From positions 39,635,402 to 39,699,401 of the forward strand of contig OV121086.1 in assembly GCA_921293015.1 (NCBI GenBank): DNA of 64,000 nucleotides. Direction: 5' to 3'. This stretch comes from Phorcus lineatus. Its lineage: Eukaryota; Mollusca; Gastropoda; Trochida; Trochidae. Both the position numbers and the translations under genes were made by a program. This document shows positions 32,901-60,100 of this stretch, piece after piece. Every line of letters starts with the position of its first letter. The first letter of the stretch is position 1. Below the pieces are notes generated by a model. It was not told the origin of the DNA. It was given only the letters and a program-made list of their open reading frames with translations, and did no database searches.

Positions 32901-35792
32901 AATAATCTATGCAAGAAGAAGGCATTCCAATCAGCAGATCTCTTGGCAAAGGCTGGCTTCCGTCCATGCACTCCACCAACGTGTGAAGTATGCTCCAAGA
33001 CTGACATACCCAGGAGGTTTCTGCCATCATGTCTTTCAGAGGATGAAAATGAGATGGACGATGATGATATTTCAAACATCTTGAAATGGGTCGTGCATTC
33101 ATCCTCCATTGATGTAGTGAGCGACTTTTTCAAATGTATTGATTCCAGAAAATTATTTGAAGTTTGCACAGTTGGTATGTGCGTTTCCTGCGAAGTCGGA
33201 AGTCATGAAACGTTTGAAAACTTCAGGTCTATGGCCGGTGGTAAGATCGCAAATTTTGATAATCTTGTTGAATCAGCTGTCAAAGGTGGAAATATCTTAA
33301 TGCTTTTTTACTTGGTTCATGAATTCAAGCAAGTTCGCCTGACAAGATGCAGCTTTCAACAGGCATGTGCACTCAACCGAGTTGAAATAGCTAAAATGAT
33401 ATGGGAAGATGTCCCTGAAATCAGACTGATCTCTGTTGAACAAAGCTTTCAGGAAGAAGTTTTGAAAGAGGTGGTTACCCATGTTGATACTGACTGTGAG
33501 GAACTCCTCAGCTGGTTAATCTCGATAGGGTTCCATGTGAAGGATAGCAAAGTCCTTCATCAGGCCTGCCAGTATGGAAACAGCAAAGCCGTTGCACTTC
33601 TTCTGCAGGACCACATCAATGTAAACACCTTGAACGAGGAAGGAAATACAGCACTTCACGTGCTATGCAAGAGTGAAAATCTCAACTTTGATATATTTGA
33701 GAAGCTCTTTAGCTCTGGCGCAGACGCGAATATAAGGAACAAGAAAAATATGTTACCTTTGCATTTGCTGTGTGCCAATCAGCATCCAGTAAGGTCACTG
33801 GTTCTAAAACTTCTTCTACAAAATATGAATGTTGAACAATTGAATGATACAGATATAAAGGGGAACTCTCCTTTGTACACTCTACTTGATAGTGGATTCA
33901 CTGTGGAAGAAATGGAACTGTTGCTAGAATCAAACACTGATGTTTCTAAGCAAAATGGACAAGGAGAAACACCACTTCATGCAGCTTGTAGAAGTCGAAA
34001 CTGCAGAGCTGTGGAAATGCTTATTGAATCAAAAGTTGACATATATTCAAAAGATATGAACGGTTCCACCTGTCTCCATCACGCAGTTACTGTACCAAGC
34101 AATCATGAAACCATAGCTCATCTTTTAAAACAGCCAAATTCTGACAGTTTGCTTCGACCAGACAACTCTGGAAATACCCCTCTTCATTTGGTGATGAAGA
34201 CAGCTAACAATGATGATGCAGTGACAGTGCTTCTGAATCATGGCGCCAATGTCTTAGCTGAAAATAATGATGGCGAAACACCATTTCATATTGCATGCTC
34301 AATCTCAAATGAAAACTCCCATCGGTTCATAAAATCACAGAAAGATCTCTGTACAAGGGCATTTGAGATGACAATGAAGGAATCACCGCTCCACCTTGCT
34401 TGTAGATCAAATGGCGAATCAGCAGTTCAAATCGTGGCTCAATTTCTTAAGTGGGGTGCCGATATCATTGGTGTTGATGAGGAAGGGAAAACGCCTCTAC
34501 ATGCAGTATGTGAAAGTGCTACACATATCAGTTTGGGTATAGCTCAAGAGTTATGTGCAAGAGAAGCTAGCATGGAGTTACTTGATGAGAATGGTAACAC
34601 TCCACTTCACCTCGCTTGTCAATCACAGGGCAGTGCCAAGATTGGCATGATTCTGCATATGGTCAACCAAGGGGCCAATCCGCTCAAGCGTAACAATACA
34701 GGCGAATGTCCAATAGTGCTGATGTTCACAGAAGGTGCTTTCGACATTGTGCGTCTGATGATGCATTCAGTTTTACGTCAAGCATGTCAGTTTGGAGAAG
34801 CCCAAAAGCTTAACAATGTCGAAGATGCTTTGTCGTTACCGATAGACTTGAGTCAAGTCTATGAAAACTCAATACCTTTGATGTTAAGAGTTTGTGGCGA
34901 ACATGGGATAGGCACATCATGCGTTGTTAGTTCCATTTTGAAAGCTGGGTATGATGTCAATGTGACAAATGACATTGGTCAAACGGCAGCCCATGCAGCA
35001 TGTCGTAGTGTTGGACCTCACACAGTCTCGGTTCTGAAAGTCCTCCAAGCTCATGGTTGCAGTATGTCTCTGCTTGACAACTGGGCAAGAACACCACTAC
35101 ACATTGCAGTAGATAGTGACAACGACGCTGTGGAAGATGTTTTGAATTTCTTGTTGGACTCCAACCTGGAAGTGAACAGTGTAGATGCTGATGGAAACAC
35201 TCCATTACACATCGTCTGTGGCTCGAAAAAAATGAATTTACGTAGAAGTATCAACTGGCTTTTGAAACATGATGCCAATGTCCTTATAAAAAATCACAAA
35301 GGAGAAACCTGTGCAGATGTTGCCAGGCGGCAAACCTTGCCATACGCAAAAGAAACCCTAATGAATGAGTTTCTGTTGAGGCATTGCCAGCCGTTGTTAA
35401 CTGACAAAAACTTAATGATTAAAATACTTGAAGCAGGTGCAGACATCAACTGCACGGACTTCGAAGGCAATACAATATTCCACAATCTTGTTATGATGAC
35501 TGGTACAATTGATGTGAGGCAAGAAATTGAATTAGCAAAATCACTGGGAGGGGATCTAAGAATAAAAAACAATGATAACAACACGGCCTATGAAATTGCG
35601 CTCCATGGTTGTGCAACAGAGAGTCTTCTGCAAATCTTATATTGTGATGAAATCCCACAAATGGTTAGTAAGCCTGCAACTGGTGTAAGACCAGTAGCTT
35701 CAGGTGAAAATACTCAGAAATCAAACAGAAAACTGGAAATAGTTGATCATGTTGCTCAATGTATAAAGGATATCTTTAGACTTTTTGACTAG
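26974..35792 (+). CDS. STAND-type P-loop NTPase with ankyrin repeats (frame break at an A8 run)
   Basis: Exons are 26974-27019, 28194-28295 and 31598-35792, with an acceptor at 26950 suggesting an upstream 5' UTR exon. A 49-residue leader precedes KPFVATREV, Walker A GKEVSGKTS (residues 87-95) and a Walker-B-like ILICDIFG (about 131-138), then LILTSQE. The layout resembles the STAND NTPase family called nSTAND3. A helical region with FLHDVVRDAV follows, then about 17 ankyrin repeats (GNTPLHLAC-type) to the stop. Such proteins usually act as cytosolic switches or scaffolds in innate sensing; that role is inferred. The frame changes by one base at the A8 run 32026-32033, ending the first frame at 32058, while the next stays open for over 1,200 codons. 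That suggests a recent frameshift, an assembly error or frameshifting. Ligand and partners are unknown. Confidence 0.82.
27144..27205. repeat. Two tandem 31-base palindromic units
   Basis: Two units lie end to end at 27144-27174 and 27175-27205. Each contains CAGTAGCGATAT and ATATTGTCACTG (ATATCGTCACTG in the second) and can pair with itself. They lie in the first intron of the STAND-ankyrin gene. Confidence 0.85.
28967..29765 (+). mobile_element. Degenerate Tc1-like transposon (STAND-ankyrin gene intron 2)
   Basis: A transposase reading frame is recognisable but broken. NTIRRLLIRYQQTG and GRSRSGRPRV fit the DNA-binding half. LRRPRLAGL followed by a stop fits the linker. The intact part at 29316-29606 has ILQHDNARPDTAQIVRDYL and LPWPANSPDMNPIEHLW, the second and third acidic motifs of Tc1-type DDE enzymes. 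Stops and frameshifts show that it is dead. Terminal inverted repeats were not located. Confidence 0.88.
30340..31060. repeat. Degenerate tandem repeats, about 130-150 bases per unit
   Basis: A block TTGGTGACCCTGT followed by TAATAAGG, a G/A-rich stretch, CAGAAGTCT or a related stretch, GACTCCTTAGCTGATGG and TTTATAGAT recurs about four times with many changes. Between copies, GCTCACCTGGCCTAAAAGGC at about 30726-30746 forms a small hairpin. This type of repeat is familiar from mollusc genomes. It lies in intron 2 of the STAND-ankyrin gene. Confidence 0.75.
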
Positions 35793-36300: not shown

Positions 36301-37965
36301 CAGATTCAGATTCATTTATTAAGCTCAAATCGCCACCAACGGTGGTATAAGAGCAAAAAATGATATAAAAATTTATAGACAAATTAATCAAGACAGCAGA
36401 GACAGACGAATTTTCACATTGACACAATCATATAAACAAAAACTATAGACATACATATATGTGTTCCAAGATAGAATCATATAAATATTTCCATAGCATT
36501 TCATAAAATATCTATAACTTGTAAAATTTGCTTTATATATTAATAGAGCATGTATTGTGCATTTGTATTTCTACCGATACAATTAATCCTAATTGATACT
36601 AAATGAACTAGCAATTCTTATAAATAATGTTGATAAATTTAGCAAGCTTTTTAGCACCTTTGTGTTATTATTAGTAAGTAACCTTTTTAAATTCAAATAG
36701 GTTCGGCAATGTAAAATAGAAGTTGTCAATAAGAATAGAGCGATCATGGTTCAGGGCTGTACACTTTAGCAAATAATGGAACTCATCACCAACTGCAGGG
36801 GAATGACAGAATTTCTTGACATGTTCTTTCTTGCTTAATAGTATTCTGCCAGCGTCCAGTTTCTACAGGGAGTCTATGATTAGTAGTTCTAAAGCGAAGT
36901 ATTGGTGAAGAAATATGTTTAGACAAGAAGAGATCATTCTCAAAACTTGGTTTTTCTTTCAAAATTTTGTAATATGGTTCTTTGGAACTGGATGTAGCCT
37001 CTGAGCGCCAGGACTGATTAAATTGGTCTTTTAGAACTGATTCTACTTGTAGCAAAAGCCAAGAGGTATTACATTTATTTGGATTTAAAAAGACATAAGA
37101 TAGACCACAATTATCTAAGATAGATTTGACAGATAAAAGCCAAGGTTTAGCATCAATATCGTGATTATGATTGAAGGATATCAATGAGTACAAAACATCA
37201 GATAATTTGACTTTTTCGTTACTGCTCGCTATTCTATGCCAGTAGGACATCATTCGTTTTGCTATTTTTATAGATAAAGGGGCTCTACCAAATTCTCCAT
37301 AGAGCATATACGATTGTGTTGAAGATTTTAAACAGGAAGCAAGCTTTAAAAATTTCAAATGAACTTTTTCTATTATACATGTATTTTCAAACCCCCATAC
37401 CTCGCATCCGTACAATAAGATTGGTACAACCTTTGCGTCAAATGCAGTTAAAGGGCAGTCTAGTGGCATATTCATATTTCTAGCTTTCTGAAGAAGACAG
37501 AACATTGCTTTTGAGACACTCTGTGCGATAGATATCTTACCAACTAACATTCTTCTATTTCGATGAAATTTTATACCAAGGTCACTATAATCGTCAACTA
37601 TATCTAAATAAGTATCACCAAACATAAACCTTAATATGTACTTTTTTGCCGGTCCGCTTCCAAATATTACAATTTTACTTTTAGAAATATTTACTTTTAA
37701 ATTCCATTCAACACAGTAGTCGAAGAAAGTATTGAGGGTCCTTTGTAGGCCAATATGGGTATCACTGAAAAGGTCAGTGTCATCTGCATACAGCAAAGAA
37801 AGGAATTTTATAAACAGATATATATCATCACCTGACTTAGTTTCAATGCTTATTCCAGGGCATCCATTTTCATTTAACACTTTTTCAAGGACATTATAAA
37901 GAGACCGAAAAGTAATGATGAAAGATTTTCTCAAAATAAGACAAAGAGCTATACCAGGCATTTGC
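36300..37965 (-). mobile_element. 5'-truncated, inactivated non-LTR retrotransposon (LINE)
   Basis: On the minus strand, the largest open frame (37961-36786) holds a reverse transcriptase part with the catalytic box LLYADDTDLF, then LKVNISKSKIVIFG, then the C-terminal region typical of LINE ORF2 (SYMLYGEFGRAPLSIKIAKR, FRTTNHRLPVETGRW). The upstream box ENLSSLLFGLFI lies in another frame near 37900, and the terminal VGDEFHYLLKC lies in another frame near 36790. At least two frameshifts therefore exist. The element ends at about 36300 in a GAATCT-type tail. The 5' part, including the endonuclease, is missing. The clade is not assigned. Confidence 0.9.
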
Positions 37966-40900
37966 TTTGGCAGACTTTACTTATATACAAACATTTTACT
38001 GCAAGAGAAAACAAACATAGATATTTCATTTCCAGATCAAAATATTCAATCAAAAGAGTGAATTTGTTTATGATATCGTAAAACATGTTTTATGTATATT
38101 GGGAAAAGACGAGCCTCAAAAGAGATATGCTGATTGATTTGATAATTTATTTGTTAGATGTGAAAACGTTTTCCAGCCTTTGGAACAACAATGGAAATCA
38201 GTGGATTTCCAACTGGTCATTGTTCATCCCTTGACTATAATATATGGCTCTCCTGTATGATGTATGTGTCACTGTTAACCATTAGAAAAACTTTTTTGTA
38301 TCTTCATTCACTGGAGGAAATGAAGGATATCTATCTATTATGCAAAAAGATATTAGTTTTTTTTACCAAAAAAGATTACATTTTATTTTTTTTTAAATTC
38401 TTAACCATATGACACGGTTTTATGAATGATTTCTAGATTTTTGTTAGAAATAATTTGACATATTGAGAAGGATCATTACAACGTTCTTTAATGATGTACA
38501 GCTGCATACCAAAAGTTTGTTCAAATACTTGCATATTCTAGTGCAAATATCATGTAATTTGGCAGATCTTTGATGCATCGTAGCATTGCGGAAAAGAAAC
38601 CGATTATTTTGAATTTTAAATACAAAAGTGAAAATCCATTGCACCTTAACGCAATTGTATGCCATCGTATACAGTAAACCGTAGGACTTTTCGGCAGGTC
38701 AGTGAAGTGAAGGGGTCAAAATTTTGAAAACAGTAACTTTTATGGTTCGCCATAAAATCTTTTATAAGTGATCAACAGCTTTAAACACAAGTCATGGTTA
38801 TTCGTTTGCATTAAAAATTAATTAATTGATTAAGTCAAAATGATTGGGCTGATTGTTTGCTGACAGAGTCGAATTGGAATGTTTTAATTTAAGTAGAAGG
38901 AAATAAGATTTTCGAAAGTGTGACCCCTTATGTCTAATTATTCCAAAATTCTATGCCAAAATTCTTATTTTGGCACGAGAGACTAAATGATCTCACATTG
39001 AGTTCAACACTGGCTATTTTTATTTTACACATTGACAAGGAGATATTTTTGGTCAGTTCTGCTTAAGTTATTTTATTGACGTTCAAACCAAACCTTGATT
39101 ACATGATATTTGCACTAAGATACAATAGTAAGTGAACAAACTTAGCTTTAGGCATTTTATATTTTTAAAGAATATGATATGAAATGAGTATTTGAATATG
39201 TGAACGATTTCTTTGACTATTATGTTTGAAGATAAGAAGTTATAAATGTTAAATTATTATGTGAAGGAACTGTTTAAAGATGCGTTAACATATAGTGATG
39301 TGTTAGTAACAATTTTTTTTATGCGATAGTTATGTGTCAACACTTTCTTGAAATCCTTTTGAGAGTATTAATAGAAAATTCTGTGGGAGATATGTTAGAA
39401 GAATTTGTAAAAATGTTTTAAGATTATGTTAACGATATGTTGGAAGATCGAGTGAACATAATGTTTGAAGTTCATCCGCAAGATATGTTCAAAGAGTATG
39501 TATAAGTGCAGATTAAAGCTCATGTGGAATATCTGTAAAAAGATGACGTGAAACTAAAAGTTGAGTACAGATTAAGATTAAGTTAAGTGGAAGGGCTGTT
39601 AATGGACTATCTTTAAGATGTCTTCGAGGATTACGTGAAATTAACTTTTAAAGATTATGTTGAAGATTTCATTGAACAATGTGTCGCAGATGAAGAAAAT
39701 ATTATGTTCAAGACATGCATGTTTGTTAAATTCTTTAAAAGATATATATGTGTAATGTGTATTTGAAGAACATGTACAAATACTAGTATAATCGGAGATT
39801 GTGTGAAAGTAATTTGTTAAGAGATTATAAAGGTTTGGAAATTACGTGAAATATTTTTGTGCAAGATATTTTGAAGGGTTGCGTCGTAACATCTTTAAAA
39901 AATATACGCGCAAGGTACTTGTGGCTTTAATGTTCTCGTGATATTCTTAGATATAAAGTTTGAGTTTAAGTTTAGCGTTACGGCAGTAATGATACGAGAA
40001 ACCGTCATACACGGCTCTCTGTGAGTTGACGCAGTACGTAACGGCTTGGCCTCAAGAAGTCGACTGTCGATGAAATTTCCACGGGTGAGTGAAGAAAAAA
40101 AACGTTTTGATATTTCATCAATCAACTTTGAACAGAGACGGTTGGATATGTTGTTAGAAGAGGATGATTGAGGTTATTCGGATGAGCGCACTTCCTGAGC
40201 CTAAGGAAGCGTGAAATGTCATGTGAAGTAAAATTTGTTATTGTCATTATCAAACTTTTCTTCAACAAATTTCTTTTTACTTACTTCAAATGGATCAAGT
40301 GGATGAGTCCATTATCAAATGTAGGTTGGAGGAACCCGATACACAAACCACTCATGCGTTTATTTGTTTTGATAGCAGTGTAGGCAAACTGGGCTGTAGG
40401 CACATTAGGAACATACCGAGCCTACACCTTTCGTTGCTTTTTTATGGCATTATTTCCACCCCTGTAACAATTTGAATTTAGGATCGAGGACTTACAATGA
40501 ATACACACGTATGAAGAGCTAAAAGTAATTATATTTATAGACTATAATATATGTACTGTAATTACATGTATGCACTGTGTGTATCTATTTTATGCGACAT
40601 GTACTGTGTGTGTCATGGTATTTTGCTAACACGTAGTATTGTATACTCAGTTTCCATGTCATTCATGTATCACATTCATTTATCATGAGCAAGTATTGGT
40701 TTGACTAATGCTTAATGGATTTGTGATGAAGATGTAGTTGTATATATGTGATGTTTATGCATATCGGTTATGTGTACTTATTGTTTTACAAATTGTTTCA
40801 GAGTGTTAAAAGTTAAAACCACGAGATTTGATATTCATCAATAAAGTTCTCAACATCCCCAGCAACTGTTCGTCATCATGACGCTATTATCAATTATTAA

Positions 40901-42347: not shown

Positions 42348-43690
42348 CTATTACATGTTTCGCGATGCAGTCATGTAATCACAAGTGCTTAAAAGAAGAA
42401 GAGTGAGCATTGCAAGGGAAATTATGGTTTTCCGGGTATTTTGAAGAGAAAAATTGAATAAAATCGGTAATAGATACAATGATTACACTATTTAAAATGT
42501 GATCCATATATGACTTTTACGAAACTCGTCCAATTACGTGTTTAACTGCCGCTCTCGAAAAATAAATTTGATAATCTCTATATTCACAGCGAAATAGTAA
42601 TAGATATACTGTCATGCATGACCATTAAATTTATTATGCAAATCTAACATGATTAAACATATTTTACTTCTTTGTGGGATATATAGGCAGGTGGAGAAGC
42701 TGTACAGCGTCAAATGTATGAACATTTCGTGCTAGCTCTAAAGTAGCTGCAGAACTGTAGCTATATAACCTCTTCCCCAAGTATCATCGAGGCGACGTCA
42801 GGGTATCAAAGAGCCTAAGCAACTGTAGCTACAGAAGAGTGGAGCGTCAGCTATACGGCTTAACCTGAGACAGGATGCTGTAGCTAGCTCTAAAGTAGTT
42901 TTCTCTGTCTCCTGAGTTAATTTGCAATGGAATAGGTTTCAAACAATATCGCCGCCAGTAACGACGCCTGATACAGTTTGGGGATAAATTTCTACTACTA
43001 GTAATTTAATTTATTGAAATTTCCTTTTTATGAATTTTATGTTTAAAGGGATTAAAAAATGTTCTTCCTATGACCAATTTGTAGTGCCACCTACTCAATT
43101 TGTTGAGTTTCATGACAGTAGTTTGCTATTCACTCCTGATGTGCTCAGATAGCAGTTTGGAATCAAACATATGAACAATTTAAGTTTGAGCGTCACTAAA
43201 TTTGATTGATTGAAATGTATTTTATTCATACAAGAAATGAATTGGGCACAGACTATCAAACTCAGAAAATCCCTCAGAAGATTAATTATTGTTTAACAAT
43301 AATGTACAACAAGGGAAGGACAGTATATGTATATGTACAAGAGATATCATTGAAAGCGCATTGATTAATCCATTCCAACGTCTGTAAATCACTTAAAACT
43401 GTCCCTGGCACCATTCCGTGCTTTTTGACGTCTCAAATTATCTGTCCTTGAAGCTCTTTTACACTACTGTATATCCATGTATTCAAATCTCTTCCTTGGT
43501 TACACTTGACTTTTACTTTGTTCTTTGTTTCTCAGTTCATCCGAGACCATAATGTGCTATTGCGAAAGCAGCTACTCTTGAAGCGTCGTAAAATCTATGA
43601 ATATGGTATACATACGTTTTCAAGGTTTCAAGATTTTTACGAAATGCAAGGTCTATTGTTTCTAACCATTGTAACAAATATTTCAATTCC
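42348..43690. other. Intergenic stretch with no recognised gene
   Basis: The motif GCTAGCTCTAAAGTAG occurs twice (about 42731 and 42883), with several GTAGCTA-type words around it, suggesting a small local duplication. Nothing else was recognised. Confidence 0.4.
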
Positions 43691-44324
43691 TTAAACGGAC
43701 TAGTGCACACCAATATTTCGTTAACACAACGAATGCACAGATACTGCATATCTCTCGATATTATTCAAGATCCTCACTCAAGTAATCTACCTCGTAAGTT
43801 ATTTAACAAAATTAATATTTACGTATTCAGGTAGTAAAGTTGATTTTTAAAGACCGGAAGTATTTAATGTTACGTTACAATAAATCCGCATGAACTACGA
43901 TATCGGAAATATTAAGATTTTGCTTATAACCAAAAAAGCGGAAACGGCAGCCGCTTTGGTCAATCTAATAGCAATGCTAATGCTGTGTTATTAAATCGGT
44001 TTATTTACAACATTGCTTTCATAAAACATAATTCATTATTTGGTCTCAGTTCAGAGCTTAGCTAAATTCAACAGCTGCACATAATAATAGTTCAGCCGCG
44101 TTCAACTGTCTATAATTTATCCGTTTTGTGCACAGCTAACCTTAGATTTTTACATGTTAAAGCCGACAGCGGCTGTCTAAAATTTTTCATTGTTGATTGC
44201 AGGTCAATTGTAAAGAATTTTAAGTATTTCATTGCATCGATAGAAAGCTTAAGTGAATGCATATGTCCTCTTAAACCTTAGAATAGTCAATTTAAACCTT
44301 AAAAGCGTGCACTAGTGCCTTTAA
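43691..44324 (+). mobile_element. TTAA-flanked element (family 4), copy 1
   Basis: It has TTAA at both ends and inverted termini TTAAACGGACTAGTGCAC and GTGCACTAGTGCCTTTAA. It is an inverted counterpart of 50872-51505, with very high similarity over about 600 bases including ACGGCAGCCGCTTTGG and ATCCGCATGAACTACG. It is non-coding apart from short random frames. TTAA termini suggest Kolobok- or piggyBac-type mobilisation (inference). Confidence 0.85.
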
Positions 44325-44546
44325 GTAGTATGTCATAACCGTGAATAAATACCATTCTGGATTCGAAATCAATTGAATCCTTTGAAACGATCTTTTCTGA
44401 ACATTAAGGCACTTATGAAAACTGGATCTCATCTATTTATTTGAGTTCAATTATCATTTATTTTCAAGATATTATACTTATTCTTTAGTAAAAAGTGTCT
44501 GCAAAAGAGATTTATTGATTTGAAGAGGGGAAGGCTATGCGGGAAA

Positions 44547-44564
44547 AAATATATATATATATAT
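44547..44564. repeat. (AT)n microsatellite
   Basis: A short run of AT dinucleotides about 300 bases upstream of the GH10-family start codon. The remaining 44325-44867 stretch is presumed promoter and 5' UTR, with no other feature recognised. Confidence 0.8.
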
Positions 44565-44867
44565 GCATTGGATTTGAATACCTTCTTTCATTCTGTATCA
44601 AACTCACTACTTAACAATAATCTATCGTGAAATGATCCTTAAAAAAGCGCTACGACTACGCTTCACTACCAACATACGACTTTGGATTGTTCATGGCAAA
44701 GAAAGCTACTTGTCTAACAAGTATTTTACAGAAGATAGTATGTATAATGGCCCCGTTACCTTTTTGACAACATAATACCAGCTGATAAGAGCACACGAAT
44801 TTGCAAAGAATTTGTCTTATCAGTGTTCAAGAAACTAGCCAAGGTTTTGTTTTTACACAGTTCGAAC

Positions 44868-47786
44868 ATGTTCATAGCATCACTATGGATCTTGATATCG
44901 GCCCACTCCATCATAGCTAATTTGATTACAAATGGGGACTTTGAACACACGAATCTGGCGGCCTGGAACGGTAATGGAGGTAACATCGCACTCTTTACCA
45001 CCGATAGTCACAGCGGCAATTTTTCTCTCAGGGCATTTGCAAGGTAAGACGCGACTTTCAGAGATTTATTGTCACTATACGGAACTGATAAGTGTTAATA
45101 GGGTAATTTTGGGAAACAACCAATATTTCTCGATAAAATAATATCATTTCGAAAGTTTGCCATATTTGACTTTATCAAACATACTCCGGGTCCCTTTAAC
45201 AATTCCAACAGAATTCAAATAAGAAACATGCCAGAAATTATATGATAATATGTGACTTCAGTAATTTTTATGGGTAGAAAATGAAGAAAGAAAAAATTGC
45301 AAGATTCCAAAACTTAATATTTTGATATTTTTGACGACATCTCACACATGAAATTTGAATGAAATCAATGAAGTAAATCATCTGTGTTGTACCGAAGTTA
45401 ACTGGTTATCTACTTAATTCAGGCCTGTAACTGATGAAGGTCCCTGCCAGTTTGTTAACGTACACGAAGGCGGCTACTACAAGTTCAAAGGTTATATCAA
45501 ACAGCTGGGAGACAATGCGGGAACCTTGTTACAGTCCTACACAGCCGCTATGAAGTATTTGAATTTTCAAAAAGGTATTTTCTAAATACTTTATATGTAA
45601 ATCCAGATGTCGTAGACACCGTTAGTAAAATTACAATTTTAGTTGTTTGTGGAAAGATTCACTTTTTTTAAACCATTTGTTTTGTTAATTTCTTTTTAGA
45701 CTTTCTTTAATATGGCGAATTATTCAATCATTTAGGCTCATACTTTTCATTCTTGCGATTAGCGTAAACTCATACTATCTGTTATTGGTTGGAGCCCCCA
45801 AAATAGATCCATTTGCATGCAAGGGATAAATCGGTGACTGTTGTTTAAAACAGAACTGTATATTTATAACTGCAAATTTGCCTCACTATTCTATTGTTTG
45901 ATGCAATGACCAAATAATTGTATAACTTTTTCTAAATAAAAGATAAAATGAAGGTATTTTGTTCTATTAATGGCCTTAATCTACTTATTTGATGAATGTA
46001 ATGAAAATCCTATCCTATTCGCAGTATTTCCTAGCCTAATAAGGGTGCCTCCAACTTAGTCTTTTTAAAGGCTTTTCTTGTATAAAGACAGCATCCAGTA
46101 TTCAAAGGGACTATATAGCACGCTTTTCAGCTCAAATTGGCTACTTGAAGGCATATGAGGACATAGGAAAACTTATCCTTTACAATTGACCTGTAATCGA
46201 CATTAAAAGTTATGACGGCAGAAAACGGCTTGCCAGGTAACTTAATAATATGTGCAACTTTTGTAGTATAACTTTTATAGTATAACTGAGGACTCATTCA
46301 CGGACCATTACGACTGAAAAACTTGACGCAGACAATTGAAGGTACGTTTATAGCAGAATCTTCGAAAAAGTTTGCAAACACTGACAAAATAGTATTTTCA
46401 TCTTCAAAAACAGGTTTATCTGTTGCAGATTACCCTATAGCCTCACGATCTTTTGTTGAGAGCAAGAACGGCTGGCTGTTGATGGAAGGGGATTTCACTC
46501 CCCCGAAAATAGGTGGCGTCTCCGCCTTTTTTATATGAAAATGTATCATAAAGATAATTAATTGGGAAATAAAATCATCACAAAACGAATACTCGAGGAT
46601 GTGTCATTATCACGTCGTGGAAACTGTAAAAATGAAAAGTAATTGCATGAAATGTTAAAAAAACCATAACAATCAGATTTGAGAACACTTATGATAATCT
46701 AGATCATCTCAAACCCATAGTGGTCAACAGATATATCTTACCCTTTAAATATAACTTAGCATAGTAAGTAATATTCAGTGATTTCAGAGAAATTTTACCA
46801 TTTAAAATGTTGAATACTTTTCAGGGTTTACGAAGGCAGAACTATGCATCTATGGTCCAGATAAAGAGATAGAATTTCTCCTTGATGATGTTTCACTGGA
46901 GAGTTTCCATGCCGTGGCAAACTGGGAAGCGGATGCTAATGCACGGATCCAAACACTGCGGAAGAGGAACATTGACTTTGTGTAAGTTGTGGTTGAAGCA
47001 CAGTATACTACGGTAGCCCATTAGGGACACGATGCCCAAAAAGGTTTCCGTAGATAATAATTTTCCAAGTTCATTGATATACTTTGATTAATGTTTACAT
47101 GTTTTAAAGTTTTTTGGGTTTTTGTTGTTGTTATTTGTTTTTTCTTTATTTATTTCATGTGGGATTTCTTCTTCTACAATTAGATTTGGATGTTCAAATC
47201 CAGCGTGTTGCTAAAGATGCCAATAAAAAACAAAGACAAATTATTTTTATGTATGGTCAGGTAGACAATTTAAATGATTCTTTTGTAATATATTTTTTAA
47301 AGTGAAGTTACCTATCGAAATAAGATACGCTCAAAATACCACGGTTTTAAATCCCTTTAAAGCAGAACTCCGTTGGAGCGGTCTTCAGATTTAGAGTCAC
47401 AATTTGTCTTTGAAATGTACATTGCAAAAATGAATCATCAACAAGAATCAACCTTGAGTTATTGGAGTTCTTCAAATCAGATATGTAATTGCCTTAAAGA
47501 ATATAAAAAACGTCTAAATTATGAATAAAATTAATCTTAATTGATTTTAGATTTAAACTCGGCCCAGGTGTAGATCAAGCAAACTTTACAGTGAAGGTAG
47601 GTCACGGAAGTGGACACTGGTCATTGGAAATAGACAGCAAAGGACAACTTATTTATATACTATATATTTGCCATGTTGTGAAAACTCCACACTGTTGAAA
47701 AGACTTGTTATCAAATCGAAATGCGACGCATCCAGTCATCATTAAAATGATATCTACATCAAGTGTCGCCTGAAGTATTTTATTTT

Positions 47787-47839
<53 letters not shown>

Positions 47840-50800
47840 TTTAAAAATAACAAACTGAAGATTGGTCTTCATATAAGTTCATTACCAACCGGTTTCACAA
47901 CATATTGATCATCAGGGTAACTTAATATATATATAAAGGATCGCAATAATATATTTTCGCCATTAAAGCTTATGAAATAAGTGGGACTTTCCACGTGAAA
48001 GGATCAACAAGCTAAAAGGACCATCGCACAACCTTACCCCTACGACACAGTAACTATATATCAGTCTTACTTAGTTAATTAAACTCTTTTGGGAGTTTAC
48101 ATATAGATCTTAGGTATTTCTGGTCCATATCTTTGCTTCAAAATGTGCGTTTCCCTGGGTTTCCTGGTATTGTAATATTTTCAGGACATTTTGGGTCTAG
48201 TGTGGTATTTTCAGGAACTAGAGGATGATAGAATTTACGATAAAAAATGTTTAACTTCAAATTTGGAGTACTTCTTCATCTGCTTCAGATTGACCACAAA
48301 CGTCACCTGTTCGGGTTCGGATCTTTCATAGACATGAACTGGATACATAACCCACGTTATGAAGCGTACAACAACATGACCTTCAGCCTCTTCAACTGGG
48401 CTACACTGACCTCACTTGGATGGGCCTCCACTCAGCAGGTAGACCTCTATCTCAGTAGATCACTCCTTTCAGATATGGGCAGTTATGTAGAATTTGATGA
48501 AATAACATCCACATTTGTTCATTTCATTGTTTATTTAAAACTTATACAATTTAAACAATAAAATATCTATTTATAACCAAGATGATAAATAAATGTCGAT
48601 AATACGAAGCTAATATAGTTAATATGCTAACGTCGGAACACTTTATACAATTAATAGAAATACACCTTGGGTATCTTATCGGAGGTCATAATTGGTAGAT
48701 ATCCTATCAGGAACATTTACGACATCCCTGAGACACTCTATACTCTATAGAATCCCTTAGGTAATCTATAAATACATGTAATACCCATTTTCAAATAGCT
48801 ATGTCTTTACACGGACTTATTTCCTAACTGTGAATTTTACTCTGAATAGAGTCAAAGTCTTCTGAAAAATACCCCTAAAAACATGTACGAAGAACCAACT
48901 GCAAAGGTTTTGACGAAAGAGCGGCCCGAAAACGATCTCGTCATAATGTCTTCTCCCTAGAGCGAACAGTCCTACCACTGTACCAAAGCGCATCAGCTGA
49001 ATGAGCTGCGTTTCGAAAGTCTTCTTTTATCTAAGAATATCATTATAGTGTGAGAGTTAAAGATGCCTCTTATGCTTTGAAAGCCATCTATACAAATGAA
49101 TAGCTCTAACTCTCCGCGGCATATATGACAGAGATTGACCTCTTCCTTCGGACCATCCATTGAAAGATGCGACGATGCGCCCTTGAGATCAGTAATTAGT
49201 CTTTATTTACCGACATTGAGCTCGGGTTTAAGATAGTTGAACCTTCGCATACTAACTTGAACACCTCGATCTTAGTTTTTAGTACGTACATGTTCTTAAT
49301 AAAACGTCCTGAAAAGTATTTCTTCCCAAAAGTGGAAACAAGTTATAAAACTATTTGCATGTTTAAATCTTATATTTCGTTGTTAATCAAACATTTGTAA
49401 TTGCTGATATGCCACAGACGGATGTAGCTACTACTTTTCATCGGCAGTTGGATGCGGCACACATTTTAAAAGACAAAAGGTAAGCAAATCTTGGTTTCCA
49501 TTTTACAACTTTAACATATAGAAAATGCTTAGATTCAACATAACATGCAGTCCTTGATATTATTTTCTGTTAAGGGTACGAGTACGCGGTAACACAATGT
49601 TCAGCAACCCGCCATCTTGGGTTCAGAGACTCGACTCACTCGGGTTCCAATCGGCGGCTGTCAGTCGAGTCACACAACTTATGAATGCATCTAGAGGTCT
49701 GTGAGTATATATGATTTCTTTTTTGTAGTCAGTGAAGGGAATAATTAATTACCTTGTGGTTCTTTCAGAAAGTTCACACGAACACAATTTGGCTCAAAGA
49801 TAAGAAGGATTTCATGGTCGATTCGCTGGAGGAACACGCCCTTAAGATTTAGTTTAACACATTTTAGATGTAAGATGGACATTCCACGATAAATTATTTC
49901 TTGTGGAGAACACATTTTAAGATTTGGCCAAAATGGAGAAACATTTCACGATTTGACTTTTTAAATTCATTCTGTGACTTTTATTAAGTATTTTCATAGA
50001 AGTTTCCCTGTTTTTTACTACTTTATATTTTGAAAGTAAAACAATAACTTATTACTTTCAATGTTTAGGAAAAAGCGGTTTATACTAGTACCATTTTAAC
50101 CAAACTCTTTTTTAGAATAGATCAGTGGGATATCCTAGATAATCCGCTGGATAATCTCTTCTACGAGGAGAAGATAGGAGATCCACACTACATCCAGCAG
50201 TTGTGCGACCTGATGAAACTAGAAGACCCTTCTGTGCTCTCGTACTTGAATCAAGATGACGCGTTGGCTGTAGGATCTAAGACACACGTAAGGGGATACC
50301 CAATAGCTTCAAAAGTAAACGGTGACAAATTTCCGTCATATAGCCTTTGGTTTAAGTTGTGGTTTACGATATTTTTAATTCGCTCTTCAAAGAAATTTGT
50401 GGTTATAGCCGTTTTCGATAGTATTTAAGTTATATCACGGCTGTAAGTATTATTGCAGGGAGAAAGCCTGCAACATTGTCGTGGCTGTGCAAAGAGGTGA
50501 AACCTGCGAGCATTTGCTGGAACTGTTTTGGTAAAACACAAACAACATGATGCCATAATCTGACATCGTAAAAGCGCAAAGCTCCTGGGTTTAGCGATGT
50601 GAACAAACTTATATATTTAACGTTTCTAACGCAATAATTACACTAAAGGCACAAACGAGTTTGGCATCCTGCCTGCTGGTGCGGGTTTGTCATATACAGT
50701 TATTAATAAAACCATAACATCTTTACATTTCAGGCCTATGCTGCGCTGGCCGACTCTGTCAAAGATCACGGGCTTGGTGGGTTAGGAGTGAAGGGTTCTT

Positions 50801-53800
50801 TTCCTATTACACCGCCGGACGCTACCCTTCTGAAGGTAAGAGAAACATTGACAGATTACGAGACGTCACGGGAGCTGGTGCTACAACGCCCCGCTTTTAC
50901 GGTTTACATAGGCTATTTTAAGGTTTAAGAGGACTTATGCAATCACTTAAGCTTTCTATCGATGCAATGAAATACTTAAAATTCTTTTCAATTGACCTGC
51001 AATCAACAATGAAAAAATGTAGACAGCCGCTGTCGGCTTGGACATATAACAAATCTAAGTTTAGCTGTGCACAAAACGGATAAATCATAGACAGTTGAAA
51101 GCGGCCGAACTATTATTATAGTGCAGCTGTTGAATTTAGCTAAACTCTGAACTGAGAACAAATAATGAATTATGTTTTATGAAATCAATGTTGTAAATAA
51201 ACCGATTAAATAACACAGCATTACCATTTCTATTAGATTGACCAAAGCGGCTGCCGTTTCCGCTTCTTTGGTTATGAGCAAAATCTTAATATTTCCGATA
51301 TCGTAGTTCATGCGGATTTATTGTAACGTAACATTAAATACTTCCGGTCTTTAAAAATCAACTTTACTACCTGAATCCGTAAAAATTTGTTAAATAACTT
51401 ACGAGGTAGATTACTTGAGAAAGGATCTTGAATAATATCGAGAGATATGCAGTATCTGTGCATTCGTTGTGTTAAAGAAATATTGGTGTGCACTAGTGCG
51501 TTTAAGTGATCGCAATGCACGGATCCTTATCTCCATGCACCAACGCGCCTAGATGAACTTTGAAATGGTCGCATAGAGAGTCTGGTTCGGTCGCCATCTG
51601 AATTTTTTTTTTGCATTGCCTGAACTTTACTAATTAAACAATATATAATGTAAAATTATATGTAGTGATGGGATATTTGATTATTGACAAATTATAAATG
51701 ATAAGACTCAAAAGCTATGCCTTGTCAATTAAGCCGTAGAAAGGTTTTTTCATCAAATGTTTTTTGGGTAAATGAACTTCATACTATTATATCAAATTTC
51801 ATTTACACTCAGATAAATGGTTAAATTGTGAGAAAATGATGTTTAAATGAATAAGTGTATAAACAGTACAGTACCATCGAATTTCGTGTCCTCAGTAATA
51901 CCCATCTTCCTACGCATGGCCTATTCTTACGCCAACTCCAATGACTTGCTGATTAGCCTTGCCGCGTTTCCGTGCTTGTCGCCAATGCTGCTGCGACAGA
52001 TCGCGCTTGTCCAATGAGAAACATATGAGAATTGCAACTTTTCGCCGAAGAGGGCGCTGTACTTAAAACACGAATTTCGAGTGGTTGGCAGCAAGGTTTA
52101 AATTAGCCAGTGACTCTGACTGGTGAAATTTAAAGCCACGCGGGGAAGATGACAGATGTGAAGACCCTCTCTCTATGAAATCCTTACGGAAATGCAATTG
52201 TAGCTACTTCCTAAACAACCTCTGTCCTAATACAAGCGTTTCTCGGTCTAGAAGTTCAGTAGGCTGACTGGATGCAATCAGAAAAAGTTGTGCAATCAGC
52301 AACGCTGTTTCGAAGTTATTATTCAAAACGCCTCAGTTATTTAGTTATGCTTTCGGACAGCTAAACTTTATTCGAATATGCACTTTGCACTATGAGACTT
52401 CATTACAGAAAAAAAAATCAACTTCATTAACGACAGCATCAATGGATAGGCTTCGGTGATAACTACTATGTTATCCATACGTGCGGTGTTTTGATTTGGC
52501 GAAATAATGCAAAGAAGATGTTGCAATATTTTGCCGCTAGGGGAATCTGCTGGAAGCCCGAGTAGGAATTAATGACGGACCTTCCTCTGTGGGGAGTAAA
52601 TATATGGCGTAAGGATTCATGTTACTTTTGGCAGATTCACATTGGTATATATATTTAAAAGATTATTACTTTTGAAAAATAACGTTTTGATTTTAGGTTC
52701 GACTTGACCAAATTGCATCCGCGGGACTTCCGCTATGGATAACGGAAATGAGCGTGACTCATGTTGATTCCAACATCCGGGCATCTCTGCTCGATAAAGC
52801 ACTACGCATGTACTTCAGTCATCCGGCCGTTGAAGGCGTCACTTTCAAATCTGTGTGGGACTCCAACCTCCATTCTCCGACTGCACTCTTTAATGGATTT
52901 GATTGTAAAGTAAGGGCAATTCTTTAAACTTTTACATTAAGCAGTTGATGTTTAAACCATGATTAATCAGCGCTTTTGTCAGGTATTGTACACTTTATAT
53001 GAGAATATCATATCTGGTTTGGGGTTCTTAACAAATCTTGAGTTAATGGTTCAGATAAATAGAGAGCTCAATACATTCATGTACTATTGAAACAAGTTGC
53101 AAATATACTGAGCAAAACTGAAAACTTGACGTCTGGGACTTTTGGGACTAGATTTTTATTATTATGTTTGAGGCAATTATTTTAATTTTATCCTGTGCAC
53201 AGAAGACCTTGAAATCAACCGAAAACCAAAAAAATGTCTCGACAGCATTTAAGTACCCTTGAACAGCAACAAGAGGAAAACGTCAATGTCAAACGAACCC
53301 CAACTATGACGCTGCCGCCATCAAATCGGTCAACTTCACAGACGGAGACTTGAGCGTGACGTTAATCTCGCCTGCGGTACACTCGGTCCCTGCCGTCGGC
53401 AAATCTCAAGGAATCGAGAGCCAACATTAAAGACAACCGAATTCTTTGATTAAACCTTATGTGACTTAAGGCCCACACAAGATGGTTACGGCGATGAAAG
53501 GTGTCAACATTGGACCATTATGGGTTCTCAAGGCGCGAAGTCCAGCAACCCACAAGCGATTTCTGGCAGTTTGTGCAGTTACCTTTCCACCAAACATCTC
53601 TTTACTTTTTGAGATTGCAGTTACAAATCTGTTTATAAGATGATGTAATCGTATTCGATCTTCTCGAAGTGACGTCATACCTGACGGTCGACAACGGTTC
53701 CAGTTTGATGCACTCTCATCCTAAGATTAACAATCGTTTGTCGTGAACAATTAAAGGCTTTTGCAACACTGACCACAGATTGACCAGCATGGAGCCTACC

Positions 53801-54335
53801 CATAGCACGTTGACCTTCGTTTGAAAGACGCAACAATTTCTAACAAAAACTCAAATTGAAATTTTAATTTGTTTTTCCATTTCAAGATCCTTATCAGTGT
53901 TCAGTTTAAGCAAACAAGCACCGAATGACCTCATGAGCGATCTAAAGTTAAAAGTACCAAGTAGGATTAATTGGTTTTAATTCTCTAGTAAGCCGAAGTT
54001 TCAGTTCTACTTTAAATTTCAGTTCTTAAAAGGCTATTCGGTTTCTGTTCTTGTATTTTTGTTTGTTGAATTTGTAATTAAACCATTGGCTGCTTTTTCA
54101 GCCAAACACAGCCGGGGAGCGTTTCATAAATTTGACACAGCTAGAATGGTCAACCCATGTGACTAGATCTCTGAAAGACGGTACCGAGTTTACAGTCAAT
54201 GGTTTCCAAGGTGACTATGAGATCCAAACGCTTTATAACGGGGTACCTACAGGTCAAGCTGACCTTCACCTTGGTCAGGTGGACACCATCTTCTTGCAAC
54301 ACCTCCACGTGCCGAACGATTTACAGGGACACTGA
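44868..54335 (+). CDS. Secreted GH10 (xylanase-family) protein with N-terminal carbohydrate-binding module, probable pseudoenzyme
   Basis: Twelve exons join in phase: 44868-45043, 45423-45574, 46414-46512, 46825-46981, 47551-47596, 48289-48438, 49418-49479, 49575-49700, 50116-50287, 50734-50835, 52697-52909 and 54102-54335, giving 562 codons. A signal peptide (about residues 1-17) is followed by a jelly-roll carbohydrate-binding module (ITNGDFEHTNLAAW, about 18-165, ending LDDVSLESF) and a GH10 barrel. Family enzymes cut beta-1,4-xylan using two glutamates. The nucleophile E431 is present (LPLWITEMSV), but the acid/base position in WDILDNPLDN is N332 instead of Glu (usual WDxxNE). Other conserved residues also differ: RGNTMFS replaces RGHxxxW, GVKGSF replaces GVQxH, and the usual ENxxKW is lost at residues 250-255. 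The frame and splice sites are intact, suggesting a selected non-catalytic or altered role rather than decay. Introns host family 4 elements and a Tc1 fragment. Confidence 0.88.
46101..46224 (-). mobile_element. Family 4 element, diverged partial copy 3 (GH10 intron 2)
   Basis: TTCAAAGGGACTATATAGC followed by ACGCTTTT, then GGCTACTTGAAGG, GAGGACATA, CAATTGACCTGTAATCGAC and CGGCTTGCC follow the order of the family 4 end read from its other terminus, with many substitutions and an internal deletion. Only this end of the element is recognisable. Confidence 0.55.
47791..47837. repeat. (TA)n microsatellite in a GH10 gene intron
   Basis: About 23 uninterrupted TA units. They lie between exons 5 and 6 of the GH10-family gene. 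Confidence 0.97.
50872..51505 (-). mobile_element. TTAA-flanked element (family 4), copy 2 (GH10 intron 10)
   Basis: This is an inverted copy of 43691-44324. The right end GTGCACTAGTGCGTTTAA is intact, while the left end is eroded (GGAGCTGGTGCTACAACG). Shared internal blocks include GACAGCCGCTGTCGGCTT, TTCATGCGGATTTATTG and AGATATGCAGTATCTGTGC. Confidence 0.85.
52214..52335 (+). repeat. Dispersed repeat, copy 2 (GH10 intron 10)
   Basis: This is the partner of 8193-8308, in the same orientation, with CAACCTCTGTCCTAA, AAGCGTTTCTCGGTCTA, GACTGGATGCAATCAG and AGTTGTGCAATCAGC. The family is unidentified. Confidence 0.65.
53460..53835 (-). mobile_element. Tc1-like transposase fragment, N-terminal half (GH10 intron 11)
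   Basis: On the minus strand, GQSVVSVAKAFNCSRQTIVNL is a helix-turn-helix typical of Tc1-type transposases. GTVVDRQV and then VTAQTARNRLWVAGLRA lead towards the catalytic domain, which is absent. A stop breaks the frame after DRQV. It is dead and truncated. Its linker (ARNRLWVAGLRALR) corresponds to LRRPRLAGL in the element at 28967-29765, but the two are different lineages. Confidence 0.85.
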
Positions 54336-54689
54336 GATATACACGTTGAGTTACTTATTGAAATCAATTCTTGGTATTCGTTAAGATATAAACTTAAGTT
54401 GTGGATTTTATGTAAGCTTCGATCAGTTATTGTTCATCTAGTGACAGGAGAGTTACGTCCCTTTAGTTGTGTTAGAAAATGGCTAACATGTATGAAATGC
54501 TCTGATATTGTGTTGTGCATTTCTGTATTAAATAACATTAACTTGGAAGAAGAGTTTGTACTCCAAAAGCCTAGTCATGACGGGAACAGCATTGATTGAA
54601 ATTGTCCACAAGTCCTTTCGTTGTTAGTTAACTTTAGTTGACACTGACTCGAAAAGTAATTGCATGTTAATGGATGGAACTAGTGGCCA

Positions 54690-55195
54690 TAGTTCAGAAC
54701 AAATCAAGTTCAGGCTAACGAAGTAGTAGAACTTTTCTTAACAACAAAGATAAGACAATTCCCAGCTACATAGTTCAGGCAATTCCCAACTTCATAGTTA
54801 AGAAATTCCTAACTACTTAGTTCAGGCAATTCCCAAATACACAGTTAAGACAATTCCTAACTACATAGGTCAGACAATTTCAAACATCATACGTTCAGAC
54901 ATTCAATATTTCATGATGATATGATATGTATCAATTTAAAGTTCAGGTAGGCTAATTCTTAACGAAATAAGTTCGGGCAGTTCTGAACGACATAGTAAAA
55001 CATTTACTGACAAGTTCCGAGAACTCCTAACCAAATAGTTCAGGCAACCAAAATATAGCTAAGATTATTCTTATCAACATAGTTCTGGCTATTACTAACA
55101 TCATGCGTCTAGACAATAACAACACAGTTGAAACAATACTTTACAGCATAGGTCCAGGCAATTCTTAACGACCTAGTTCTGGCTAATCTGCCACA
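54690..55195. repeat. Degenerate tandem repeat of about 24 bases, 3' of the GH10 gene
   Basis: The unit ACATAGTTCAGGCAATTCC followed by AACT recurs many times, with TTAAGACAATTCCTAAC variants alternating. Units become irregular after about 54900. It probably lies within or just beyond the 3' UTR. Confidence 0.75.
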
Positions 55196-55590
55196 TCAGC
55201 GTATTTGTATCACCCATATAACCAGCACAGGAATGAGCATTGTGGCACTACCAGAAAGCGTGACAGGATTGTAGGCTTTGATATATCTTACTTCTAACTC
55301 CTTGCATAACCAATTTTTATTGGCTGAAATAATGATGTGATATTCATTGAATAACCAGTTGTCAGCAATACGAGACATTTGACCGGGTAGATATGAGGAT
55401 GTTGCGCGGAAACAACTGCGCTGATATAGAAGGATGAATTTTATGAATTATTTTGTACTCCTTGATCTGAATTTATATTATGTTCGAAATTTGGGTTTCC
55501 ACTTGTCTGATGACAAGAATCCGATGCTGATGTCGTCTAAGATGAAGTTGGAATATGTTAATAATTGTTATGTTATTGCGTAAATAATAT

Positions 55591-57170: not shown

Positions 57171-60100
57171 CTAACAACAACAACAACAGCAGTAACAGCA
57201 ACAACACATTTTACGACACTTTGGCTTTTTGGGAGGTTCAGTAGGGGGCACCTGTCCTTTTGTAAATGATAGGAAGACTTGTTCAAGAGTTGTTTGGTAC
57301 ACGGAATAATCCTCGACGGAGAAGCGCTCCTTGGCGTCCTCCATCAGCGTGAAGACCTTGGCCAGACTGACCGCTGCATACGGCACCTGGAAGTGGACAT
57401 AGCCCTGGTGGTCATCGAACATCATCGTGTCCGGGAACGTCTCCTTGATAAAGTCTATGAGAGGCTGGTTAGGCGCCGGATTTTGACCATCTGGTAGCAT
57501 GGCCATTCTGGCCACCAACGTATAGCCCTGACCGAATTTGTTCTTCAGGTGTTGCGGAGTTCCGAGGCACACGAAGCGAGCGTTGACCATGATGGCGATT
57601 TTTGTACATAGTGCGTCACATTCCTCCATACTGAAACATATTTTCAAAATGAGTTTTTTTCAGCAAAATTTTTTAATAGACGTGCATTTCTAAATGCAGA
57701 AATAGTTGTAAGTGAAAAGAGCATTATGTCTGGGTAATGAAAATATCACCTCGCTATTTAAATAACATGTGACAGAAAGTTGTAAAATGCAGGGGAATCG
57801 ATAGTTTTAAGCACCAGTCAGTTCTTCTCCATCGAATGACACGATTGTTAACGTTTGGAATATATTTTTCCATATGTGACTTCAGAAAACAATCAGATCA
57901 ATTTACCATCATTTTTTTCACCTGTGTCATTAAGTTTACCTGTGCGAAGTGAGGATGAGCGTTCTTCCACTCTCTCTGATCTTGGAGAGAACCGTCCACA
58001 TGTGTCTTCTAGCCTTGGGGTCCATCCCGGTAGAGGGCTCGTCGAGCATGATGAAGGCAGGGTCTCCTACCAGAGCAATGGCAGTGCTCAGCTTGCGCTT
58101 GTTTCCTCCACTGAAGATAAGGAATATTACTAAGGATTGTTGTAATAATACTCTGTTGACTGACGACCAATCTCCTCAAGGTTTTGGTATAACGAAAGCC
58201 ACACTTAGACTTTCATGGTTAGCGCGTTCGGCTTCGGATCAAGCGGTCCATGGTTCGAATCCCGCCTGGGGCTCGGCAACTTTGTCTGCAGTAGAGAAAT
58301 GTTCTACACGCAGTAAGGTTTGGGTGCAATGCTACACTGAATTTTAGCGTAGTGCCACACATGGTTAGCTAGTTCCAGCCGATGCTCGCAGGTTTCACCG
58401 CAATGCATAGCCACAATGGTGTTGCGGGCTTTCTCCCTGCAATAATACTAGCAGCCGTGATATAAGTGAAATACTCTTGAAAGCGGCTTTAAACCCTATA
58501 TCACCTCATAAACCAAGCTAATAGAAGTGACAATGTTTTTCAGTAGTCCGTGATCGATCATTAATAAACCCTTGAACGCTATCGACATTCAGGATGGATA
58601 TAAACTGTCATCACTAAAAAAATAGTTAAGGTTGTAGTTAACTGAAGTCAAACTAAAGCACTGGCAATTCATCTGAACGCTGGCATATTACCTCAGTATA
58701 TTTGTCAAGAAAGGTTTTTAGATTCAGAGCTTGAACATATCACGTCGCTTGTTGTCACATATCAAAGAGTTACATTTGCAGTACCGACAGGGTCAACTTG
58801 TCAGTAATTATAGGAATCTAACGCATGTTGTCCTACCTGTATTCCGAGGTGGGAATGTCAGCATACTTGGAGAGCATCATAGAGTCGAGCAGGTTGTCAC
58901 ACACCTGGGGGATACAGCGTTCAGGGATGCCCTTCAGTCTTGCATACATGGCCAGAGTCTCGCGTCCGGTCATCTGGTCAATGAGGGCGTCGAACTGAGG
59001 ACAGTATCCCATGTTCTCCTGCACCTGAACGTACAGGTATCGGTCAAGAAAATGACATCAAACTTACAAAAGCGACGTACATTATTCATGGTAAAAAATA
59101 ACGCATGTATTTATAAGATTAGATTCAATGGTATATGCATTTCAAGAGGTAATATCATTTTCAGGCAAAGATTCTCAAAAGTTTATCTTCTTAATTTTAA
59201 AGTTATTTTTGTGTGTGTTGTGAAAGGTAGCTTTGAAAAAGCAAGCAATGTCTCAGTAGCTATAGGTTAACTTCTTTGACACTTGAGTGGCTATAGGTTA
59301 GGTCCAGTTTATCGGTCTGAAAGAACACTCCTTGCTCGCACGTTCTAACGTAATCTCAACTAGCAAATCACAATGACTCCAGCAAAAGCATTCGGTATCA
59401 GTCTCAGAGGCAAGTAACTCCCGTTTACCATTCGTTAACCTTCATCGCCGCTATCAATCATTTTAAGGCGATTATGTCATTGGTCCGTTAATGACTTTGG
59501 TTTGTCTGCGCTAAACTGGTGTCAGAACGTGCGAGCAAGGAGGGCGCTTTCAGACAATTGTGCATAGGACAGATAGTGTACGTTCGAATCCTGCTAGAGT
59601 TAATATTTAAAAACTTTTATTCCTCTGAATACGGTCGATTTTAACCAGACTGGGTTACGTCAAGTGATACTTTTTGACGGCTTAGCGTCGTTCTAGGATG
59701 TCACGTTCTCAATTGTTAATCTCTTATTTGAGTTAAGAGGACACGAGTGCGATATAAGACTAAGGAGCGAATCAATTATTCAATTTCAATGGGACTGGCT
59801 GAATGAGTGGATGTTCTACCAACTGTTGCAAGCAAGAGGGTTTATACAAGTGACACCGATAACTCCTTTCATATAAGTCAGATGATAAATACCTTTTTAA
59901 CATTGTTCCGGACATCGTAAGACCACAGGTAAGCATTCCCTGCCGTCAGCATCACATCCCCAGTCAACATTCTAAACGTCGTCGTCTTCCCGGCGCCATT
60001 TTGTCCAAGGAGACCAAAACACTCCCTCTCAGAAATGCCAACGCACAGGTTGTCAACGGCAACGAAGTTTCCAAACTCTTTGGTAAGGTTCTTCAAAATA

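Follow-up and report, generated by a model that had tools for sequence, protein, structure and literature searches.

A GH10 gene of the gastropod Phorcus lineatus that has lost its sugar-cleaving pocket probably encodes a maintained pseudoenzyme

Introduction

What becomes of a glycoside hydrolase of family GH10 when its acid/base glutamate is gone but its nucleophile remains? The question is raised by a gene in a 64,000-nucleotide stretch of the Phorcus lineatus genome (contig OV121086.1, positions 39,635,402 to 39,699,401 of the forward strand; the whole stretch is termed the window below). The gene lies on the + strand at 44868-54335 and is complete: its 12 exons form an open frame, each of its 11 introns has GT-AG borders, and the spliced product of 557 amino acids carries a CBM22-like domain, a GH10 barrel and a C-terminal domain (Table 1). 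An initial annotation, made from the sequence alone, had described the region 50116-52909 as part of an animal GH10 gene; this region covers exons 9-11, and the label ‘animal’ is consistent with the intron-bearing, 958-Mb source genome. The same annotation wavered between a maintained pseudoenzyme, an enzyme of altered chemistry and a xylan-binding lectin. Only the first of these holds up well in our analysis. We consider it probable that the gene product is a pseudoenzyme, maintained and probably secreted, which works by binding and in which the pocket has been replaced and the barrel scaffold is under purifying selection. This reading is supported by the open 12-exon frame, the selective loss of pocket residues, the rejection of neutral evolution (omega=1, where omega is the ratio of nonsynonymous to synonymous substitution rates, dN/dS) and the existence of a clade of degenerate paralogues.

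Results and Discussion

The active site and the sugar pocket

The best solved relative of the product is PDB 7d88 (phmmer E 2e-34), and the alignment starts ahead of the barrel and reaches the C-terminal domain. When the window protein is aligned to 7d88 and to 7d89 (the same sequence except for Ala at both catalytic Glu), Asn327 falls at the acid/base position and Glu426 at the nucleophile. The former closes the motif WDILDN (residues 322-327, first base 50126) and the latter lies in WITEMS (residues 423-428, first base 52736), where 7d88 has WDVNNE and TEY. The two residues had previously been numbered N332 and E431, with the same spacing of 99, and the assignment of a lost acid/base and a kept nucleophile stands: the alignment puts Asn, and no other Glu, at the acid/base position, and a scan of both strands at 44000-55500 for another codon run of the WDxxNE kind (W[DNE]xxNE or W[DE]Vxx[EDN]) finds none. 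The substitution of RGN for RGH and the altered His of GVQxH (GxQxH reads GVKGS) are likewise borne out, as is the missing ENxxK block.

The damage is wider than these motifs. The positions of the -1/-2 pocket (W84, N126, W273 and others) were named beforehand in Cex numbering. At 11 such positions the bacterial series E,N,K,H,W,N,E,Q,H,E,W, from which a single bacterial row departs with T at the first, stands against T,S,G,N,S,D,N,K,S,E,K in the window protein. A conservation threshold of 88%, taken across 17 intact rows of which 12 are bacterial and 5 animal, is passed by 10 of the 11 positions. The window protein retains only one of these 10, the nucleophile, as against 47 of the 62 other conserved positions (Fisher p=1.2e-4); the equivalents of W84, N126 and W273 are among the losses. 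The other well-modelled members of the paralogue clade described below show the same pattern: for the pocket and the other conserved positions respectively, the counts are 0/10 and 44/62 in C11:32.02M, 1/10 and 52/62 in C2:35.04M, 0/10 and 50/62 in C2:35.02M, and 2/10 and 44/62 in C11:41.28M. A kept scaffold with a lost sugar pocket argues against catalysis, and it argues equally against a use of the old cleft such as chitolectins make of theirs.

Could a different chemistry survive, with Glu426 paired with another proton donor or acting on pre-activated substrates? Glu426 is kept in three other clade members as well, and an Asp directly precedes the acid/base position. However, besides the acid/base residue eight further pocket residues are changed, including those that hold the -1 sugar (H80, N126, Q203, H205, K47 and N44). 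Nor is the retained nucleophile conserved: the seven genes of the clade have E in four cases and D or A in the other three (D once, A twice). We regard an altered-chemistry enzyme as very improbable. GH10 chemistry in the window protein is unlikely, and the protein would not be expected to cleave xylan.

Purifying selection on the scaffold

Pairwise dN/dS between the window gene and its relatives is saturated (dS from 7 to meaningless values), and so we used a branch test on 8 genes and 491 codons. On the window gene’s own branch omega=1 is rejected (log-likelihood, lnL, -11411.45 vs -11387.96; twice the difference, 2dlnL, 47.0). The degenerate branches have an omega of 0.197, as against 0.118 elsewhere, and omega=1 is rejected for them also (lnL -11579.53 vs -11390.73; 2dlnL 378). 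The closest pair in the degenerate clade, the C2 pair, has a pairwise omega of 0.287 (2dlnL 64.6 against 1), a value that doubtful stretches in C2:35.02M would inflate; pairs of intact genes give 0.135 and 0.303, so that constraint on the C2 pair is not clearly weaker than on these.

These data bear on the idea that the gene is a decaying pseudogene, intact by chance, in which the pocket residues have simply been lost. Its open frame and wholly intact splice sites already contradict that idea, as does the rejection of omega=1 on its branch. In neutral simulations, frames stayed open in 140 of 1000 runs at 0.1 changes per codon, in 2 of 1000 at 0.3 and in 0 of 500 at 0.94, the last being the distance required by the omega=1 fit. 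We find the pseudogene explanation scarcely credible.

A clade of degenerate paralogues

A protein search of the source genome yields at least 51 exon matches, the window gene included, and a profile search at least 15; both counts are lower bounds. Spliced models were obtained for 14 further genes, making 15 with the window gene. Of the 15 animal models, 7 lack the acid/base Glu, two of them with a poorly modelled exon, and 4 lack the nucleophile Glu. In a tree of the 15 animal and 12 bacterial proteins (27 rows, motif columns excluded), the seven genes without the acid/base Glu group together (support 92/76; 88% of 200 bootstrap trees), and the window gene sits in an inner five-gene clade (98/98). 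The sister of the seven-gene group is an intact pair, C1:75.09M and C1:75.13M, which has already lost the E and N of ENxxK and has in common with most of the clade a one-residue deletion at this block, as an intermediate would. These and other intact paralogues have the same domain order as the window protein and approximately 40% identity to it, and C1:75.09M also has 12 exons; unlike the window protein, they keep WDVNNE, RGH, GLQSH, TEMD and WGFW.

Two further degenerate genes lie outside the clade. C11:39.12M (L050) keeps both catalytic Glu, with 3/10 pocket and 51/62 other conserved residues; C39:30.58M (L056) keeps WDVNNE with Ala at the nucleophile, and its counts (7/10 and 37/52) give no contrast between pocket and scaffold. 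A single clade of all nine degenerate genes is rejected (approximately unbiased test, p-AU 1.9e-5), as is a clade of the seven plus C11:39.12M (p-AU 0.001): these two genes degenerated separately from the seven-gene clade.

The tree has the following scope. Its 12 bacterial rows were drawn from 68 loci found by a scan that required HWDV[ND]NE or GVxxWGFW, and they are thus biased to intact genes. The 15 models exclude L043 (C39:18.58M; acid/base exon not found) and L053 (C1:34.45M; partial, transposon-rich). Among those included, C1:34.47M is unreliable before exon 9, exon 9 is poor in C11:12.24M and C41:24.64M, exons 5 and 7 are doubtful in C2:35.02M, and C39:30.58M is partial. The tree also omits a cluster of near-identical GH10 genes at C7:31.71-31.83M, six of which (L001-L004, L006 and L007) are known from pieces only, none including the acid/base exon; WVTE[LM]D is present in 6/6 pieces, and the cluster seems to have arisen by a recent multiplication of intact-type genes.

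Several observations weigh against a maintained pseudoenzyme, or at least against its simplest history. The nucleophile Glu is, after all, kept in the window gene. The data are compatible with a tree in which the C2 pair lost the residue on its own (p-AU 0.25), so there may have been more than one loss. Two omega classes improve on one by a 2dlnL of only 5.2, a modest relaxation, and one intact pair (0.303) is no lower in omega than the degenerate C2 pair. The window branch is synonymously saturated (t to 33), which makes its omega of 0.025 unusable and leaves only the rejection of 1 to count. Branching within the five-gene clade, which the branch test took as given, is weakly supported (49/62 and 47/29). 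Finally, all of the evidence comes from one genome.

The presence of intact paralogues in the same genome also brings to mind a regulatory role: the window protein might be a subunit of the active enzymes, a decoy or a sink for xylanase inhibitors, beside them in the gut. Bivalve GH10 genes are noted as digestive-gland genes in PMC5549309, where GH10 is over-represented among the annotations of the mussel digestive gland, and xylanase inhibitors do occur within GH18 (PMC1945033, in excerpt). On the other hand, one would expect a cleft-mimicking decoy to have retained the cleft. A partner role of this kind seems to us improbable.

The CBM22-like domain and the lectin hypothesis

Several bacterial relatives of the 7d88 type, which are homologous to the window protein in barrel and C-terminal domain alike, also carry an N-terminal carbohydrate-binding module (CBM). 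The N-terminal domain of the window protein aligns with that of one such relative, which in turn matches the CBM22 structures 1dyo (E 7.1e-10) and 4xup (E 3.9e-22), and also 4xuo; the CBM22 name for the modules of PDB 1dyo, 1h6x and 4xuo, and the residue W53, are assumptions of ours. In CBM22 modules a ligand-stacking aromatic follows R-x3: it is Trp in 11 of the 11 bacterial rows with a CBM, and an aromatic in all four intact animal rows that hold the stretch. The window protein differs in having Asp63 at this site, and the other four rows of the degenerate clade that hold the stretch have T, I, S and E, so that none of the five is aromatic.

This substitution is central to the proposal, made in the initial annotation, of a lectin that binds xylan or another plant glycan, with the CBM22-like domain and the dead barrel together holding xylan uncut. 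The Pfam profile PF02018 (CBM_4_9) does match above its cut-off (39.3 vs 25.9 bits, on a 586-aa first model), and there is a precedent in the GH18 chitolectins, oysters included, which are without the catalytic Glu yet have sugar-binding residues (PMC1945033, in excerpt). However, it is precisely those residues that chitolectins hold and the window protein has lost, at 9 of the 10 pocket positions tested, and the idea is weakened further because Asp63 replaces the conserved aromatic of the CBM. A xylan lectin thus strikes us as unlikely, though the window protein may still bind some other glycan or a protein.

A remodelled binding site?

Of 366 alignment columns, nine have a residue that the window protein shares with C11:32.02M and C11:41.28M and that none of 18 intact-type rows has. 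The 10 pocket columns account for three of the nine (G249, K395 and K460), as against 6 of 356 elsewhere (Fisher p 0.0011 in a post hoc test, the columns having been picked after inspection). At position 460 the C2 pair has Arg, and C11:12.24M and C41:24.64M have Asn. The two new lysines in the old pocket of three clade members hint at a remodelled binding site, and the old barrel face may thus bear a new ligand site. We do not extend this to a ‘basic protein’: the net charge of the barrel does not distinguish degenerate from intact genes, and the claim is limited to the two lysines.

We envisage the following sequence of events. A GH10 gene of the CBM22-GH10-C-terminal-domain type would have been duplicated; in the copy line that led to the window gene, the sugar-cleaving pocket would have been almost wholly replaced and the barrel scaffold held by purifying selection; and this line would then have given rise to several paralogues, none of which has the acid/base Glu. 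The product would act through binding, and its ligand would most likely be a glycan or a protein that attaches to the remodelled face of the barrel, where Lys395 and Lys460 lie. More speculatively, the degenerate genes may constitute a family of animal non-enzymes derived from GH10, in which the old active site was not just lost but remade as a binding site of a new kind, with the conserved lysines K395 and K460 as its hallmark, for an acidic glycan or another ligand. Such a family would be comparable to the chitolectins and growth factors that arose from chitinases, but with a xylanase origin and with the original sugar site given up.

Comparison with known systems

PDB 7d88 is a GH10 xylanase of Bacillus sp. 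KW1 (PMC13288935, in excerpt). Among the closest analogues of the window gene are the GH18 chitolectins and imaginal disc growth factors. According to PMC1945033, these too have a glycosidase barrel from which the catalytic Glu disappeared once the gene had been duplicated, and they are kept by animals, oysters included; they belong to another family with another chemistry, and they keep the sugar-binding residues that the window protein has lost. The window gene shares with them the lost catalytic residue and purifying selection, but not the retained sugar-binding cleft. Glycosidase-derived pseudoenzymes are already known, those of GH18 in oysters included; among the papers listed by term searches of an open-access library, subscription papers lying outside them, we found no account of a maintained clade of inactive animal GH10 proteins. 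For oyster, 11 xylanase genes have been counted and described as constitutive, their function being called speculative (PMC13128122, in excerpt).

The GH10 profile PF00331 matches above its cut-off (39.3 vs 22.1 bits, residues 243-494 of the 586-aa first model), and annotation would label the window gene and its degenerate sisters as xylanases; to count such genes as enzymes inflates an animal’s apparent capacity for plant or algal digestion. Should our reading be true, GH10 would stand beside GH18 among the glycosidase families that animals have repeatedly turned into non-enzymes, with at least three independent degenerations in a single genome and, in every case, an intact relative to compare. 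It also suggests that an old enzyme scaffold may have been given a new, non-cutting job.

Gene model and neighbourhood

Table 1. Exons of the GH10-derived gene (window coordinates)
Feature	Position	Strand	Content
Exon 1	44868..45043	+	start codon; hydrophobic N-terminus; CBM22-like domain begins
Exon 2	45423..45574	+	CBM22-like domain; Asp63 at Trp site of bacterial relatives
Exon 3	46429..46512	+	CBM22-like domain
Exon 4	46825..46981	+	CBM22-like domain ends, GH10 barrel begins
Exon 5	47551..47596	+	GH10 barrel
Exon 6	48289..48438	+	GH10 barrel; TS-LGW at ENxxKW block (one-residue deletion)
Exon 7	49418..49479	+	GH10 barrel
Exon 8	49575..49700	+	GH10 barrel; RGN (N282) for RGH; Ser286 = W84-equivalent
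Exon 9	50116..50287	+	WDILDN; Asn327 at acid/base position, codon 50141-50143
Exon 10	50734..50835	+	GVKGS; Lys395 and Ser397 for Q and H of GxQxH
Exon 11	52697..52909	+	WITEMS; Glu426 retained, codon 52745-52747; Lys460 = W273-equivalent
Exon 12	54102..54335	+	barrel end; C-terminal domain common to 7d88-type GH10; stop TGA 54333-54335

When a paralogue is used as the query for a spliced alignment to the window, it gives identical exon borders and ends 15 bases before the stop region; this check is reciprocal rather than independent, the paralogue model itself having been built from the window protein. A start of exon 3 at 46342, which gave the 586-aa model, was dropped in favour of 46429, a better acceptor that agrees with the paralogues. 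An extra exon at 47184-47258 has splice-like borders and was left out for its incompatible reading frame. The hydrophobic N-terminus is, judged by eye, a likely signal peptide, and the product is probably secreted; it contains five N-glycosylation sequons. GC content at third codon positions is 49.8%, as against 36.7% over the whole locus.

An inverted repeat of ~620 bases, probably a mobile element, has one arm upstream of the gene (43680-44307) and the other in intron 10 (50892-51516), the arms being 91-96% complementary in four pieces. Elsewhere in the window, a 1256-aa open frame at 32022-35792 (+) contains many ankyrin repeats (Ank_2 E 1.8e-66), and a 396-aa open frame at 36786-37976 (-) is a retroelement remnant with a reverse-transcriptase match below cut-off (26.3 vs 29.6 bits). 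Exons of an ABCA-type transporter lie at 57171-57659 and 57936-58175 (-; R1_ABCA1 67.3 bits, with ABC/AAA pieces).

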